Of a DNA stretch of 36,366 nucleotides, positions 7,976-22,360 are shown in pieces. The stretch's first letter is position 1. Every line of letters starts with the position of its first letter. The position numbers and the translations under genes were made by a program. Origin of the DNA: a virus. The stretch covers positions 1 through 36,366 of IMG/VR virus record IMGVR_UViG_3300009183_000029. The stretch is one strand, 5' to 3'. The notes under the pieces are model-generated. The model saw only the letters and a program-made list of their open reading frames with translations, was not told where the DNA came from and ran no database searches.

Positions 7976-8806
7976 TTAAACACTATATGTCATATTAAAA
8001 GCATAAGAATATGAATTTAACCACACAATACTTCCACCAATTGTTGATGCAATGTAACCATTAGTTCCACCAGCAGCACCAAAGAACATATACATAACAC
8101 CTGTTGCGGCTTGCTCTCTACAAGTACCACTAGGCCCTAAAGAACCAGCAGCAAGCGTAAAAGGTAAGCCGTTAATTACCATGCGGCCACCGGCAGTTCC
8201 AACAGTAGTTAATGTCACAGACCCCTGAAGAAATACTTCTTTGCCAATTCTGGTGTATCTTCCACTAGATGTGTATGCGGTAAGCGACCCTGAATCACCA
8301 CTAGCAACAGGTGCCCAAGTCCCCTCCTCATACCAGTTCAGCAGTTGCGAAGTCATTCCTGCTGCTGGGGTGTTGGCGGTGAAGTTGATGCCTTTAGCCG
8401 CTGTGCTTGGAATGATGTTACCCACAGCAACCGTTACATCACCAGCAGAAGCAATCCTCATTCGTTCAGCATTGTTGATGCTAAATACAATTGGATACGC
8501 GCCAGTGTAATAAAAATTTATTGCATACGGTACAGATAAACCACCAGCTGAACTATCAATACCAAAATAAAATGTACCGCCAGTGTTTGAATATGTTGAT
8601 CTAGCGCTTACTGTACCCTGATTACTTATCACATAACCTGGAGAACCAAATGATGCAGTATAACTACGAGCAGATACATCTTTACCTGTAGTTAGATTAT
8701 CTACACTTACTTGTTTGGTAACTCCACTTTGAACAATCGGCAAAGTTTCCGTACCCGCCAAAGGCGTGGTAGCAGAGGTTAATGCTGATATTTTAGTATT
8801 CGACAT
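7976..8806 (-). CDS. Tail fibre-like protein with C-terminal beta-sandwich
   Basis: The protein is 276 aa. The N-terminus MSNTKISALTSATTPLAGTE followed by LPIVQSGVTKQVSVDNL is a recurrent start of phage fibre proteins. The middle is beta-rich with an INNAERMRIASAGDVTVAVG segment. The last 110 residues (about 165-276, GRYTRIGKEVFLQGSV onward) resemble in layout the C-terminal domain of the tailspike just upstream, a probable receptor-binding jelly roll. The start codon overlaps the tailspike stop (TAATG), so the two are made together. The receptor is unknown. Confidence 0.7.
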   Translation of the reverse strand: MSNTKISALTSATTPLAGTETLPIVQSGVTKQVSVDNLTTGKDVSARSYTASFGSPGYVISNQGTVSARSTYSNTGGTFYFGIDSSAGGLSVPYAINFYYTGAYPIVFSINNAERMRIASAGDVTVAVGNIIPSTAAKGINFTANTPAAGMTSQLLNWYEEGTWAPVASGDSGSLTAYTSSGRYTRIGKEVFLQGSVTLTTVGTAGGRMVINGLPFTLAAGSLGPSGTCREQAATGVMYMFFGAAGGTNGYIASTIGGSIVWLNSYSYAFNMTYSV

Positions 8807-11883: not shown

Positions 11884-12483
11884 TTAGGATAAATGATAAT
11901 GATTTCGTTTTATACGATTTTCAGCTTTTGGAAGAACTTGCAAATTTGTTGGTACGTGTAAACCTGACACAAGTTTGCCGCGCAATGGGATTATATGATC
12001 CACTTCCCAAATAAACCCAAAAATACAAGTTCGTAATTTAGCCAAACTGTATGCCTCTTTCATGATCCAACGGTCATCTGAAGTCAACCATTTTGGTACT
12101 CGTTTGGCTCGTCTGGCAACACTTGCAACTGCTCGTGCAGTGTATGCAGCGGGATTCTTTTTAATATACCGGAGTGTTTTGGCTCTAACTTTTTCAGGAT
12201 TTGCTTTTACCCATGCTTTGGCGTCTTTACGCACTTTATCTTTATTGGCTTCTTGCCAACGCTTGACGCGAACATTGTGAACATCACGGTTACAGTCAAT
12301 CCATTTTTTCATGGACTCCGAATGTTTCTCAGGATTTGCAATACGCCATGCAATTGATTGGGCAATAGTACATTGAATACATTTGGCCCCTGTAGTGTAC
12401 CGATCAGAAAAATGGCCGTATTTACACGGTTTACCCGTGTTGTATATTTTTAATCCTAGCGATTTGGCTTCTGCGCGTTTCAT
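11884..12483 (-). CDS. HNH endonuclease, possible mobile (homing-type) gene
   Basis: The protein is 199 aa. An N-terminal zinc site is visible as CKYGH (C20, H24) and CIQC (C35, C38). The middle is basic and helical, with repeated KAWVKANPEKVRAKT-type segments. The HNH core is WEVDHIIPLRG, then GLHVPTNLQVLPKAENRIKRN at about residues 158-195, with the metal-binding DH pair and the N and N/H positions in place. Such freestanding HNH enzymes are common between phage structural genes and often spread by homing. Its start overlaps the previous stop (ATGA), so an insertion, if it was one, is neatly coupled. Confidence 0.88.
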   Translation of the reverse strand: MKRAEAKSLGLKIYNTGKPCKYGHFSDRYTTGAKCIQCTIAQSIAWRIANPEKHSESMKKWIDCNRDVHNVRVKRWQEANKDKVRKDAKAWVKANPEKVRAKTLRYIKKNPAAYTARAVASVARRAKRVPKWLTSDDRWIMKEAYSLAKLRTCIFGFIWEVDHIIPLRGKLVSGLHVPTNLQVLPKAENRIKRNHYHLS

Positions 12484-18661: not shown

Positions 18662-19129
18662 CTACTTTGCCACCACATCTGTCACATCCACCCGATCCAG
18701 CAATACCCGTGCTTGAGCCTGTTCCAACGCATCGATGACGCTGATACGTTTCTCCAGCACAGTGACATCCAGCTTGTCGCCGTATGTCTTTGGCTTGAGC
18801 TTAGATGTCACCCATTTACGCGCGTCAACCTGTAGCCGTTTCTGTTGCGCCCAAGCGCCAGCAAGCGCAGGGTTTAAATGGCCCGGAAAGGGCTCATCAG
18901 CCAATTCAATAATCTCCTCTGCCAATCGGTCTGCACGCTGCTCTACAGCCCTCTGATAGGCCTCCTCAAGCCTTGCATCAGCCTTAATCATTCTCCATGC
19001 CTGAACATAGCTTGGCATCCCCTGATTCTCCAACGCACGACTCAGGCTAGAGCCAGCAGCAATGTTGTCCAAGATGACAGGCCATACCTCTGCTTGGTTG
19101 TATTCAGGTGGTCTTCCCATTTTCTTCAT
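18662..19129 (-). CDS. Terminase small subunit, Sf6-type
   Basis: The protein is 155 aa (Sf6 gp1: about 140). GRPPEYNQAEVWPVILDNIA opens an N-terminal helix-turn-helix (about residues 5-55, with SLSRALENQGMPSYVQAWRM). A helical oligomerisation segment follows (EAYQRAVEQRADRLAEEIIE), then AQQKRLQVDARKWVTSKLKPKTYGDK, a signature I recognise from this family. It binds the packaging site and hands DNA to TerL. AAAGGACAG precedes ATG 19129. Unusually, an ART-like gene and a 290-bp spacer separate it from TerL. Confidence 0.9.
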   Translation of the reverse strand: MKKMGRPPEYNQAEVWPVILDNIAAGSSLSRALENQGMPSYVQAWRMIKADARLEEAYQRAVEQRADRLAEEIIELADEPFPGHLNPALAGAWAQQKRLQVDARKWVTSKLKPKTYGDKLDVTVLEKRISVIDALEQAQARVLLDRVDVTDVVAK

Positions 19130-19245: not shown

Positions 19246-19377
19246 TCACCCCCGACCAATCCACCATTCCTTAATAACTTGCCAAACCCACCAAATCCCA
19301 AAGAACGTCACTGGCACTACCCACAACCCTGTGACGATCCAAAGCACGCCAATTAAAAACTCAGATTCAGTACGCAT
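19246..19377 (-). CDS. 43-aa single-TM protein
   Basis: ATG 19377 overlaps the last codons of the DUF3310 gene, and the frame runs 43 codons to a TGA at 19246. A strongly hydrophobic, Trp-rich stretch (LIGVLWIVTGLWVVPVTFFG, about residues 8-27, then IWWVWQVI) indicates a membrane segment. The short tail (KEWWIGRG) is basic. Overlap with a real gene and a clean membrane pattern support it. The function is unknown; the inner membrane is the expected site. Confidence 0.6.
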   Translation of the reverse strand: MRTESEFLIGVLWIVTGLWVVPVTFFGIWWVWQVIKEWWIGRG

Positions 19378-19642
19378 CTCTGACCTCCACCCTTTTTACC
19401 AATTTCTGTATTGCCGCCTCACGCACGTCCAACACCTCAACCAGCTTCTGCAAATAATGACCCGCCTTACCCGCTTCCTGTTTCGCCGTATCCTTTGCAC
19501 CCATCCTCATGATGTACTTCAAAGCATTTCCACGGTAGTACCCAATCTGCTGCTCGATGGGCCATGTATCCACCACATCCCAAGGCTCAACCCCCATCTC
19601 TTTGTAATGCTGACCACCGACCTGTTTTTCATTTGCTTTCAT
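19367..19642 (-). CDS. DUF3310 family protein (T7 gp1.7-like region)
   Basis: The protein is 91 aa. The DUF3310 signature is clear: GGQHYKEMGVEPWDV (8-22), then IGYYRGNALKYIMR (33-46) and a helical KAGHYLQKLVEVL. The family includes T7 gp1.7, reported as a nucleotide kinase, and is common in phage replication regions. It follows the TACCC repeat array and precedes a small membrane protein, in the leftward replication-to-packaging unit. Whether this short form has kinase activity cannot be read from the sequence. Confidence 0.85.
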   Translation of the reverse strand: MKANEKQVGGQHYKEMGVEPWDVVDTWPIEQQIGYYRGNALKYIMRMGAKDTAKQEAGKAGHYLQKLVEVLDVREAAIQKLVKRVEVRDAY

Positions 19643-19688: not shown

Positions 19689-19802
19689 TCTACCCTTCTA
19701 CCCTCACCCTAAAGGTGTGAGGGTAAGGGAGGGTAGATTTTGATGTGTTTTTGTCACTTTTTTACCCTTACCCAAAACTACCCAAAAGGGTAAAGTAGGG
19801 TA
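19689..19802. repeat. TACCC iteron-like array in two dyads; candidate replication origin
   Basis: Nine TACCC units lie in 112 bp. Forward copies start at 19691, 19699, 19763, 19769 and 19779; reverse copies occupy 19721-19725, 19731-19735, 19788-19792 and 19798-19802. Most extend to T[CT]TACCCT. Block A is a nested palindrome: TCTACCCT (19689-19696) pairs with 19730-19737, and TACCCTCAC (19699-19707) pairs with 19717-19725. Block B is symmetric about 19785.5 as TACCC-N5-TACCC-AAAA-GGGTA-N5-GGGTA. Several neighbours are exactly 10 bp apart, one helical turn. A T-rich stretch separates the blocks. It lies between the 70-aa gene and DUF3310, about 280 bp downstream of the primase-helicase gene. 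An origin, initiator-binding site or operator is inferred. Confidence 0.75.
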
Positions 19803-19806
19803 GAAC

Positions 19807-20019
19807 TTATGCAATTCTCCAAATCCTTAAGCCGTCATTTATTGACCTAGCAATAAACTTTTTGCCCAAAGATTTGCCGTGCATTTTTGATGCTTGATGC
19901 AAATTCCCCTTCATTTTTTCATTGGCGGCAAAAATACTCTGACCGATTTCCATTGTTCCAAACGGATATTTGTGTCTCTTATTGACTGGAAATGGCACAG
20001 AATCTTCAATTAAATACAT
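19807..20019 (-). CDS. 70-aa basic protein of the replication region
   Basis: The protein is 70 aa, starting at ATG 20019 with an AGGAAC ribosome site. It shows a YPFGTMEIGQSIF segment (18-30), then a basic helix-turn stretch (NLHQASKMHGKSLGKKFIAR) and a final INDGLRIWRIA strand. Proteins of this shape (short acidic start, YPFxxMxxGxSFF, basic middle, RVWRI end) are frequent in phage and plasmid replication regions and look like small DNA-binding domains. It sits between two extra TACCC copies and the main array, so it is a candidate array-binding factor (inference). Confidence 0.7.
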   Translation of the reverse strand: MYLIEDSVPFPVNKRHKYPFGTMEIGQSIFAANEKMKGNLHQASKMHGKSLGKKFIARSINDGLRIWRIA

Positions 20020-20047
20020 ACTTTTTGTTCCTGTAAAAAGCCCATTT

Positions 20048-20071
20048 TACCCTCATTGCACCAATTTACCC
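20048..20071. repeat. Two outlying TACCC units
   Basis: TTTACCCT occurs at 20046-20053 and again at 20065-20072, in the same orientation and 19 bp apart, in the gap between the primase-helicase stop and the 70-aa gene. They match the consensus of the main array at 19689-19802. If the array binds a protein, these may be auxiliary sites. Confidence 0.55.
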
Positions 20072-20079
20072 TGCAACAT

Positions 20080-22089
20080 TTAAATCGTATTCTTACGCAT
20101 CAACATAGCACTGGAATGCACCAAATCCACCAAAATCCAGCCATGTTCAAACACCTGAATGACCTCACCTTGAAGCAATAAACCGACCATATCTTGTCTT
20201 GATGGTGTCAACATATTGACAATGGTGCGCTCTGCAAACCCATCAATTGCCAGTTTTGACTTCAAAGCTGACCTGCTAACGTAGGGCAAATCACCCCGAA
20301 TTTCAGCGCCTGATGACCACCAAGCATTCTCAAACAACTTACGATGACCATCCAACTTACTGGTTTTCTTTGCTTCTACTGGTGCATCTGATTGCACAAC
20401 GACCGCTGAAGTGACCGCCACACCATCCTCATCAAACCAACCGGGGATGGCAACACTGTGTAAATTCACATAGATTGGCTGTGCCATTTCTGCGTCTTTT
20501 GACTTCCGCTGCACGATTTCCATTGGTTTATCGTCCTTGCTGGCAACGATACTGATCTCAATATCTAGCGCCCCACGCCATGCTGACGATCCACGGGCAC
20601 GATGTTGGGCCTCATCTGATACGCCTGTATGGTGTACCAAAACCACTGAGCACCTAAATTCCATCATGAGTGCGTTGCAGCTATCCAGCATGGTCTTTGC
20701 ATCTTGGGCGCTGTTTTCATCGCCAGATAAGAAACGGTGCAGTGTATCGACCACGATCACGCATGGAGTGATGCTACTTTGCTTAATGGAATTGCTGACC
20801 CGCTGATAACCTTCTGGTGTGTTCAGGTCGCAGCCATCCTTGGACAGCCACATATTGAGCTTGCCAGCTTGATTGTGGTGCTTCCATGCGGCTACCCTTC
20901 CGCGCAGACCGTGATGACCCTCGCCTGCTAAATACACTACGTTGCCTGCTTTCACCTTATTGCCCAACCAATCGGCGGTACTTGAGGCCATGCGCAGACA
21001 CCAATCCAAGACTACAAAAGTCTTACCACCCCCACTTGGGCCATGAACCATGATGAGGGCTTGCTCTTGTAACCAGCCTTTGACCAGCCATGCTATGGGG
21101 CTGGGCTGTGAACAAAAGTCATCTGCTGGGATTAGCCAGTCATTCTTTGGTGGTGAGAGTAAAGCGGCAAGGTTGTTACCCGCTTGGGCGTAATCGTTGG
21201 CATCGCCGGGGATGGGTGGCATGACCATTCGTGCCCCATATTTAGCGCTGGCTTGCTCGGCATATCGCTGGCCCACGCCTGATGCGTCATTGTCTGCCAC
21301 GATAACAATCTCTTGCTCTGCCCCATGTAATTCGCGCATGATCTGGGTGACTGGAACTAAATTACTGGCTGAGTAGGCAATCACGCAGGGACGTTGGGTG
21401 GTTTCATGGATGGTGGCGGCAGTGGCAAAGCCTTCAGCTATATACATTACGCCAGGCTCATCTAATGAGCCTAACATCCAAAACTTTCCGCCTGTCGCCC
21501 CGCCTGAGTGGTAGAGCTTGCCACCGTCTTTGTCTATGTACTGAATGCTGGCTAGTTTGGAATCATTCCCATAAAGTGGAACCATCAAACGCCCATCGCC
21601 CGTAGTGCGTGCGCCGTGGGTGGCAATGCCCTTACGTTTAAGGTATAAATGGTCTGGGTAAGCCACGCCACCTTCAACCCAAATAGTCTCAACGGTGGTG
21701 GCGGCAACTTCATGTTTGCGCTCCAACTCTGCATCGCGCAAAGTCTTGGCCTCGGATAAGCGCCTTGCATAGTGCATTTCCTCCACACTAGTAAGCGTGC
21801 GTCCTATGTCTGCCCGAAATGTTTGCTCCATTCCCATTCTCCAGCAACCAAAGCGTCCAGCCGGGATGCCATCGGCAAATATTAAGTACCAACCCGGCTT
21901 ATCGCCATGGCCCGGCGTGCCTTTTGTGCCTGACTTAAACCGATGTATTTTGCCATCCATATGAATCGTATCTGGTGGGTCAATACCTGATGCCGCCATC
22001 GCGTCACGAAGTTGAGATTCAGGGGAAGCAATAATGCGCTCGGCTGGTGGCGACCACGGGCCACCAAGAATATTAGAGAGATTCGCCAT
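20080..22089 (-). CDS. Toprim primase fused to RepA-like helicase
   Basis: The protein is 669 aa. The N-terminal part (about 45-200) resembles the primase accessory region of phage/plasmid primases. A Toprim domain follows, with E219-G220 in MYIAEGFATA and the DND pair (D266, D268) in VIVADNDASG. An AAA_25/RepA-like ATPase comes next: GPSGGGKT (350-357), VIVVDTL (444-450) and VLVHHTG (483-489). The last 90 residues look like a winged-helix end. The protein should unwind DNA and lay primers at the fork. Its start overlaps the HTH gene by 17 bp, so repressor and replication protein share one transcript. It is unusual that it lies opposite to the recombination operon. Confidence 0.9.
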   Translation of the reverse strand: MANLSNILGGPWSPPAERIIASPESQLRDAMAASGIDPPDTIHMDGKIHRFKSGTKGTPGHGDKPGWYLIFADGIPAGRFGCWRMGMEQTFRADIGRTLTSVEEMHYARRLSEAKTLRDAELERKHEVAATTVETIWVEGGVAYPDHLYLKRKGIATHGARTTGDGRLMVPLYGNDSKLASIQYIDKDGGKLYHSGGATGGKFWMLGSLDEPGVMYIAEGFATAATIHETTQRPCVIAYSASNLVPVTQIMRELHGAEQEIVIVADNDASGVGQRYAEQASAKYGARMVMPPIPGDANDYAQAGNNLAALLSPPKNDWLIPADDFCSQPSPIAWLVKGWLQEQALIMVHGPSGGGKTFVVLDWCLRMASSTADWLGNKVKAGNVVYLAGEGHHGLRGRVAAWKHHNQAGKLNMWLSKDGCDLNTPEGYQRVSNSIKQSSITPCVIVVDTLHRFLSGDENSAQDAKTMLDSCNALMMEFRCSVVLVHHTGVSDEAQHRARGSSAWRGALDIEISIVASKDDKPMEIVQRKSKDAEMAQPIYVNLHSVAIPGWFDEDGVAVTSAVVVQSDAPVEAKKTSKLDGHRKLFENAWWSSGAEIRGDLPYVSRSALKSKLAIDGFAERTIVNMLTPSRQDMVGLLLQGEVIQVFEHGWILVDLVHSSAMLMRKNTI

Positions 22090-22267
22090 GAACTATTGCC
22101 CGACTAGTTAAGTATTCACTAAGTGCAACCATCACCTTATAGGTGGGGTTGGCGTTTTCGTTGTCCCGTATCTCACGGATCGTGTTGTAGTGTAGTCCTG
22201 TGGCCTCGGCTACTTTGACTGGGCTTCGATCCTCCAAGGCGTTGCGTATAGCAAAGAGAGTCATCAT
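22073..22267 (-). CDS. Small HTH regulator, Cro/CI-type
   Basis: The start at ATG 22267 (64 aa) is chosen over an upstream ATG at 22360 because AAGGAA lies at the right distance and the longer form would read through the promoter region. VKVAEATGLHYNTIREIRDN (about 17-36) is a helix-turn-helix and PTYKVMVALSEYL a closing helix. It is the first gene leftward of the divergent control region, so it likely represses the rightward early promoter and perhaps its own. No integrase was found, so a role in classic lysogeny is uncertain. Confidence 0.8.
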   Translation of the reverse strand: MMTLFAIRNALEDRSPVKVAEATGLHYNTIREIRDNENANPTYKVMVALSEYLTSRAIVHGESL

Positions 22268-22295
22268 TTTTTTATTCCTTTGTGTAAATAATTTA

Positions 22296-22323
22296 TTGCA
22301 ATGTGTGAATTCTATATTAGAAT
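22296..22323 (+). promoter_or_regulatory. Early rightward promoter
   Basis: TTGCAA (22296-22301), a 16-base spacer and TAGAAT (22318-22323) form a plausible sigma70 promoter (4/6 and 5/6 matches), with a start expected near 22330. It precedes the early operon. The -35 lies in the palindrome ATTGCAAT (22295-22302), and the -10 lies in another dyad, which suggests repression at this site. Confidence 0.55.
22309..22323. promoter_or_regulatory. Operator-like dyad over the -10 box
   Basis: ATTCTA (22309-22314), TAT and TAGAAT (22318-22323) form a perfect 15-base dyad overlapping the putative -10. The size suits a small Cro-like dimer such as the product at 22073-22267. Binding is inferred. Confidence 0.5.
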
Positions 22324-22329
22324 AGCACC

Positions 22330-22360
22330 ATGCACCGAACTGATCTCCAGACGGGTGCAT
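22330..22360. repeat. Inverted repeat at the start of the early transcript
   Basis: ATGCACC (22330-22336) and GGTGCAT (22354-22360) are perfect 7-bp arms 17 bases apart, just at the predicted transcription start and before the AAGG ribosome site of the first early gene. It could be a second operator or a leader hairpin. Confidence 0.55.

Follow-up and report, generated by a model that had tools for sequence, protein, structure and literature searches.

A repeat array behind a phage primase-helicase gene as a candidate replication origin whose repeat word covaries with the helicase C-terminus

In phage P4, a single protein, alpha, contains a primase, a helicase, and a C-terminal origin-binding domain, and the system has short iterons and the sites ori and crr. 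In the plasmid RSF1010, the iterons are read by a separate protein, RepC. In lambdoid phages, the specificities of the O protein and of the ori iterons vary together, with iterons that lie inside the O gene and an initiator that is not a helicase. In SaPI and PICI elements, the origin directly follows the 3' end of the initiator gene, and its iterons form two sets with an AT-rich region between them. The initiator is a helicase that in some cases also carries a fused primase, and iterons differ from one element to another (PMC6092414; PMC7581432). The downstream repeats of SaPI Rep and SCCmec Cch2 are read by C-terminal domains, and for the helicase Cch2, these are short direct repeats in a putative origin just behind its gene, to which the C-terminal domain binds specifically (PMC7581432). 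PMC6092414 also mentions P4 alpha with its cognate site, and in Vibrio PLE, a RepA_N protein that is not a helicase binds the iterons (PMC7145576).

The array described here lies in a 36.4-kb IMG/VR virus contig, which was analyzed at its full length of 36,366 nucleotides (hereafter, the window). An initial annotation had proposed an iteron-like array and candidate origin or initiator site at this position, a reading supported by the conserved layout, the changing repeat word, and the DnaA boxes found among relatives. From these sequence comparisons, we consider it very probable that the array is a phage replication origin and that its iterons are bound by a C-terminal winged helix of the primase-helicase encoded next to it. 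The nearby genes on the array's side are all on the minus strand (Table 1). The primase-helicase gave Pfam matches to AAA_25 (4.6e-35) and Toprim (Toprim_3, 1.2e-11) only, matched RepA (Protein Data Bank entry 1g8y) at 2.9e-6, and corresponds to phrog_2249, DNA primase. By reading, the window has large late-gene ORFs. By eye, an ORF at 11884-12483 resembles HNH-type homing endonucleases, as does one at 1293-1958 of a related locus, L002, both within phage gene clusters.

Table 1. Coordinates of the array, its parts, and neighboring genes in the window
Feature	Position	Strand	Remarks
Right iteron block (block A)	19689..19737	-	Two GGGTA sites each side of hairpin core; pattern search
Imperfect hairpin core of right block	19703..19722	.	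CTCACCC-TAAA-GGTGTGAG on + strand, one bulged base; read from sequence
AT-rich spacer between iteron blocks	19738..19760	.	17/23 A/T; candidate melting region
Left iteron block (block B)	19761..19804	-	Five sites, dyad arrangement; pattern search
Two extra iteron copies, TTTACCCT	20046-20053 and 20065-20072	-	Between primase stop and 70-aa gene
70-aa DUF7303-like gene	19807..20019	-	Pfam DUF7303 E 1.5e-4, below curated cut-off
Primase-helicase, 669 aa	20080..22089	-	Toprim primase + AAA_25/RepA-type helicase + predicted C-terminal winged helix; proposed initiator
Predicted C-terminal winged-helix domain, residues 566-669	20080..20394	-	Proposed iteron-binding domain, from structure prediction
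Proposed recognition helix and flanks, residues 618-628	20206..20238	-	Segment best predicting iteron
Small HTH (Cro-like) regulator	22073..22360	-	phrog_18104 transcriptional regulator, 3.7e-8
91-aa DUF3310 protein	19367-19642	-	Array precedes gene
Sf6-type terminase small subunit	18662-19129	-	Gene 560 bp from array

Within the window, the repeats are strongly clustered. A pattern search recovered the nine TACCC units in 112 bp (19691-19802) that had been claimed, at 19691, 19699, 19763, 19769, and 19779 on the plus strand and at 19721, 19731, 19788, and 19798 on the minus strand, together with two outlying sites at 20048 and 20067 (both plus). This is the window's maximum density of TACCC/GGGTA, compared with at most five per 112 bp in 300 dinucleotide shuffles, and GGGTA was the most densely clustered 5-mer when the whole window was scanned. 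All eight copies of the longer word T[CT]TACCCT in the window fall within 19689-20072; shuffles hold 1.4 on average. The background rate assumed in the initial annotation, one TACCC per about 512 bp, is approximate only, as the window holds 69 copies in total and shuffles hold 43. A search for a spaced TACCC pattern in the window's own IMG/VR record returned no match.

The symmetry described for the two blocks was partly borne out. The arrangement TACCC-N5-TACCC-AAAA-GGGTA-N5-GGGTA in block B is exact in the window, with an additional TACCC at 19763, but this symmetry is not conserved, since one site is degenerate in the relatives L002 and L081. The nested palindrome claimed for block A was found as a dyad with a hairpin core, and this layout is kept in L002 and L081 and also in the nearest relative, L001, where GACCC replaces TACCC. 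The spacer between the blocks is identical in L002 and L081, which also carry a GGGTA pair equivalent to the two outlying copies. We dropped the proposed 10-bp helical phasing as a conserved feature because spacing varies among relatives (5, 7, 8, 9, and 10 bp).

Arrays of this kind are widespread among relatives of the primase-helicase. Searching with the primase yielded 80 IMG/VR loci, and two further scans, a genome scan, and an annotated phage collection brought the set to more than 200 loci; in a plasmid collection, matches to the primase were only partial and distant. About 120 dereplicated relatives have the same Toprim and RepA-type primase-helicase and a similarly laid-out array just 3' of the gene. 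In the 700 bp that follow the primase stop on its 3' side, 160 of 210 loci had a 6-mer repeated at least six times within 260 bp, compared with 47 of 1,820 control windows. Most relatives have an array that starts 0-80 bp past the primase stop, and most of those displayed have two iteron sets. The window, L002, L081, and L003 have a small gene separating the array from the primase. The origin reading thereby passes the check set for it in the initial annotation: relatives that share these genes also have an array in the corresponding position, similarly built but with a different word, and frequently with DnaA boxes alongside.

The repeat word itself differs by lineage, so TACCC as such is not conserved. 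Words observed include GGGTA, GGGTC, GGGGGC, GGTAAC, GGAACG, GGGACA, GGTACA, and GGTTCA, among others, and the copies inside one array carry the same word. We assigned about 27 iteron classes from a motif list; a cruder automatic clustering that merges some of them gave 19. In L001, whose primase is 95% identical to the window's overall and 98% identical over residues 30-540, GACCC stands for TACCC at nearly every site. Among isolates, arrays adjoining an annotated primase were found in Salicola phage CGphi29 (GGGACA), Idiomarinaceae phage 1N2-2 (GGTACA), and Alteromonas phages PB15 and XX1924 (GGTTCA).

Two groups of relatives depart from this pattern. In a clade whose C-terminus is altered in the region of the helix (PYLTKSVMREYAVANG...), comprising several of L148-L187, no array was found next to the primase (L148-L159, L166-L168, L179, L181, L186, and L187), which fits a joint loss of helix and array. 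In L215-L219, L123-L125, L126-L127, and L236, the C-terminal domain looks unrelated to that of the window, and an array is present with new words (GGGTAC, ACCCCC, CTAACA, and TGATGC); these loci show an apparent replacement of the whole recognition module.

The small gene next to the array in the window, which encodes a 70-aa protein, is found with the TACCC array in L002 and L081, where the protein is 80% identical. An ORF resembling this DUF7303-like gene also lies between primase and array in L003, at about 8060-8290. In the window (19807-20072), iteron copies flank the gene, as if it had been dropped into the origin region. Sequence comparison suggests that it is an optional passenger between primase and array.

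Differences in the repeat word were associated with a short segment of the primase-helicase C-terminus. In pairwise comparisons among relatives, residues 618-628 predicted repeat class with an AUC of 0.97-0.99, a value that, like all AUC and pair figures given here, measures strength of association rather than independent trials, as sequence pairs share ancestry. In a sliding-window analysis, AUC stayed near 0.5 over most of the protein and reached 0.97 for residues 613-648; the best single columns for predicting the iteron were 626, 628, 624, 618, 625, and 619. We also compared dereplicated pairs with at least 85% identity over residues 30-540 (the N-part). The iteron was common to 0 of 150 such pairs when residues 604-635 were less than 30% identical and to 97% of 123 such pairs when they were at least 85% identical. 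None of 2,000 permutations confined to close-relative clusters matched the observed value. Iteron class changed 51 times on the N-part tree and 37 times on the C-terminal tree, where the minimum for 27 classes is 26. The primase-helicase was one of three binders proposed at the outset, and the covariation of its C-terminal domain with the repeat favors it as the probable reader.

Structure prediction places these residues on a plausible DNA-binding element. An AlphaFold2 prediction for residues 566-669, made with 63 sequences, had a mean pLDDT of 88.5 and a pTM of 0.77, with secondary-structure elements in the order H-E-H-H-H-E-E-H, which we read as a predicted winged helix. The best covarying residues fall on the predicted helix at 620-627, a recognition helix that would enter the major groove. 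A Foldseek search of this domain against solved structures gave no match below 0.001; weak matches included CRP-family regulators, CggR, SelB, RuvB, and helicase entries, some of them winged-helix DNA-binding proteins. A sequence search of the Protein Data Bank with the domain recovered no close solved relative, and a Pfam search gave nothing consistent. A relation to P4 alpha was seen neither as a Protein Data Bank sequence match nor among the 50 structural matches listed; any relation would be a distant one.

These observations suggest a model in which the primase-helicase would bind the iterons through its C-terminal winged-helix domain. The helicase, probably hexameric, would assemble as rings on the two iteron blocks, and once bound, it could open the AT-rich spacer between them, then load and prime, with host DnaA assisting in some relatives. 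Binding, spacer melting, helicase loading, and a replication start at the array are all steps that we infer.

DnaA boxes are consistent with an origin function. The density of perfect boxes (TTATCCACA) was 1.16 per kb in the 500 bp that follow the primase and 0.015 per kb in the remainder of those loci, an enrichment of about 77-fold beside the arrays. Since only 35 of 117 arrays, belonging to several classes, have a perfect box, and a search for the exact box in the window found none, DnaA is not a universal part of the system. Cumulative GC skew, which had been suggested as a check, was uninformative as origin evidence: its minimum lies near 22 kb, away from the array, and follows gene orientation. 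It coincides with a divergent gene switch near 22.37 kb.

Covariation indicates recognition, not purpose, and the array could instead be an operator through which the primase-helicase C-terminus regulates its own operon or the downstream genes, with replication starting elsewhere. The two extra sites precede the 70-aa gene, and the array precedes the DUF3310 gene, as this explanation would have it. We regard it as unlikely, as DnaA boxes are concentrated beside the arrays, the array lies 3' and not 5' of the operon to be regulated, and a search for a promoter-like site at the array found none. The combination of iterons with a helicase also fits initiation better.

A second alternative is that recombination moves the array and the 3' end of the gene as one unit, without any binding. 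Because the two adjoin, linkage must contribute to the association, and the iteron is in fact predicted to some degree by synonymous sites near the array (AUC 0.66-0.85 across comparisons). Between the window and L001, residues 561-640 differ at synonymous sites as well as in protein sequence. This patch (20150-20410 in the window) has 62-80% DNA identity between flanks of 90-95%, and it has the appearance of a recombined segment that takes in the recognition helix. The association nevertheless goes beyond linkage: amino acids 618-628 are far stronger predictors of the iteron than the synonymous sites of that segment, and they also outperform residues 641-665, which are nearer to the array. 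Among pairs whose N-part identity is 0.80 or higher, AUC was 0.987 for residues 618-628, 0.897 for residues 641-665, and 0.712 for synonymous sites of codons 600-640. In the comparison with L001, the tract for residues 641-660 is 90% identical at the DNA level, although the helix and the array on either side of it both differ. Distant primases with similar helices also have the same iteron, as seen in eight out of eight pairs with N-part identity of 0.55-0.65 and identity of 0.70-0.85 over residues 604-635. Exchange without binding is therefore very unlikely to account for the pattern.

The dyads could also pair as RNA, giving the primase transcript a terminator or hairpins at its 3' end. A hairpin occupies the equivalent position at the center of the right block in many loci, with a conserved TTTA or TATA loop and stems that are variable but complementary. 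Perfect stems of at least 8 bp, with iteron dyads counted among them, were found in 63 of 119 array regions, compared with 0.05 per 330 bp elsewhere. One weak terminator-like match lies in block B, but such matches were no more common than in shuffles, and there was no Rfam match. Many iterons are direct repeats without a partner, and pairing alone does not demand one word across all copies of a locus. An RNA structure would account neither for the DnaA boxes nor for the way the repeat word covaries with a protein helix, and we judge it less probable still. The right-block hairpin itself is a candidate priming site, cruciform, or RNA end.

That the array is instead bound by the small HTH protein or the 70-aa protein, the other two binders first proposed and both encoded by adjacent genes, is extremely improbable, given that the iteron cannot be predicted from HTH identity (AUC 0.47-0.65 over all pairs, 0.579 at N-part identity of at least 0.80) and that L001 has an array directly after the primase with no 70-aa gene between them, which excludes the 70-aa protein as a required binder. 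The HTH protein is near-identical in the window and L001, where the iterons differ, and unlike in the window and L002, where the iteron is the same. Its gene overlaps the primase start and is swapped freely among close relatives, independently of primase and iteron. A packaging site was considered, as the gene for the terminase small subunit is close by, and was not favored because it is the primase C-terminus that the array follows. A TIGR array was considered because of the TIGR-Tas locus present in CGphi29 (PMC12045711) and was likewise not favored, as the arrays are without the described edge, loop, and spacer layout.

The origin reading yields a predicted replication origin, together with its reading domain, in a widespread group of environmental phages as well as in the isolates CGphi29, 1N2-2, PB15, and XX1924, for which we found no earlier origin description in the open-access literature searched. 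The roughly 27 natural helix-iteron classes on one scaffold would amount to dozens of natural lock-and-key pairs. With them, it becomes directly testable how an initiator can change in step with the many copies of its site without loss of function. One tentative possibility, which we hold with somewhat less than even confidence, is that origin recognition is under diversifying selection, with the recognition helix and all iteron copies changing in concert and the recognition module even replaceable outright by an unrelated C-terminal domain and a new iteron. If so, related phages and satellites sharing a cell could not fire, titrate, or parasitize each other's origins.

The comparison with known systems shows both shared and distinct features. 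A generic iteron origin has iterons, DnaA boxes, and an AT-rich stretch; the window has the iterons, and DnaA boxes are present in some relatives. The arrays resemble the O/ori pairs of lambdoid phages in that initiator and iteron specificity change together, but here the array lies outside the gene and the proposed initiator is a helicase. The helicase part is homologous to RSF1010 RepA (1g8y), whereas the iteron reader here appears to be fused to the helicase. P4 alpha joins primase, helicase, and origin-binding domain in one protein; here, a Toprim primase and a helicase share one protein with a predicted C-terminal winged helix, for which covariation suggests a role in origin binding, and the iterons are likewise short. 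The P4 alpha helicase belongs to a different family from the RepA-type helicase here, and unlike P4, with its two distant sites ori and crr, the window has one iteron region, where all TYTACCCT sites fall within 19689-20072. SCCmec Cch2 differs in having only three AAGTG iterons, a separate polymerase-primase, and another helicase family (PMC7581432).

The closest likeness in layout is to the SaPI and PICI origins. Here, too, the array is 3' of the proposed initiator gene and two blocks flank a spacer, which at 23 bp and 74% A/T is short and moderately AT-rich. In SaPIs and PICIs, the initiator C-terminal domain binds the iterons; here, strong covariation and the winged-helix prediction make the C-terminal domain a candidate for such a role. 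Where SaPI Rep families have DUF927, or D5_N/Primase_Cterm, this protein has a RecA-fold helicase of the RepA type (AAA_25) with a Toprim primase. In contrast to the SaPI and PICI satellites, it is encoded by a tailed phage with its own terminase, its relatives often have DnaA boxes, and about 27 iteron classes occur on one protein scaffold. We therefore set the system apart from both SaPI/PICI and P4 because the helicase family differs and, for PICIs, also because it is not a satellite. In 2018, the layout was said to be common to PICIs and "no other known bacterial replicon" (PMC6092414); within the scope of open-access papers, our reading would extend the PICI-type layout to tailed phages with a different helicase. 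The best explanation, judged from sequence, is that the array works like the Rep-ori pairs of SaPIs and PICIs and the alpha-ori pair of P4, with another helicase family and in a tailed phage.
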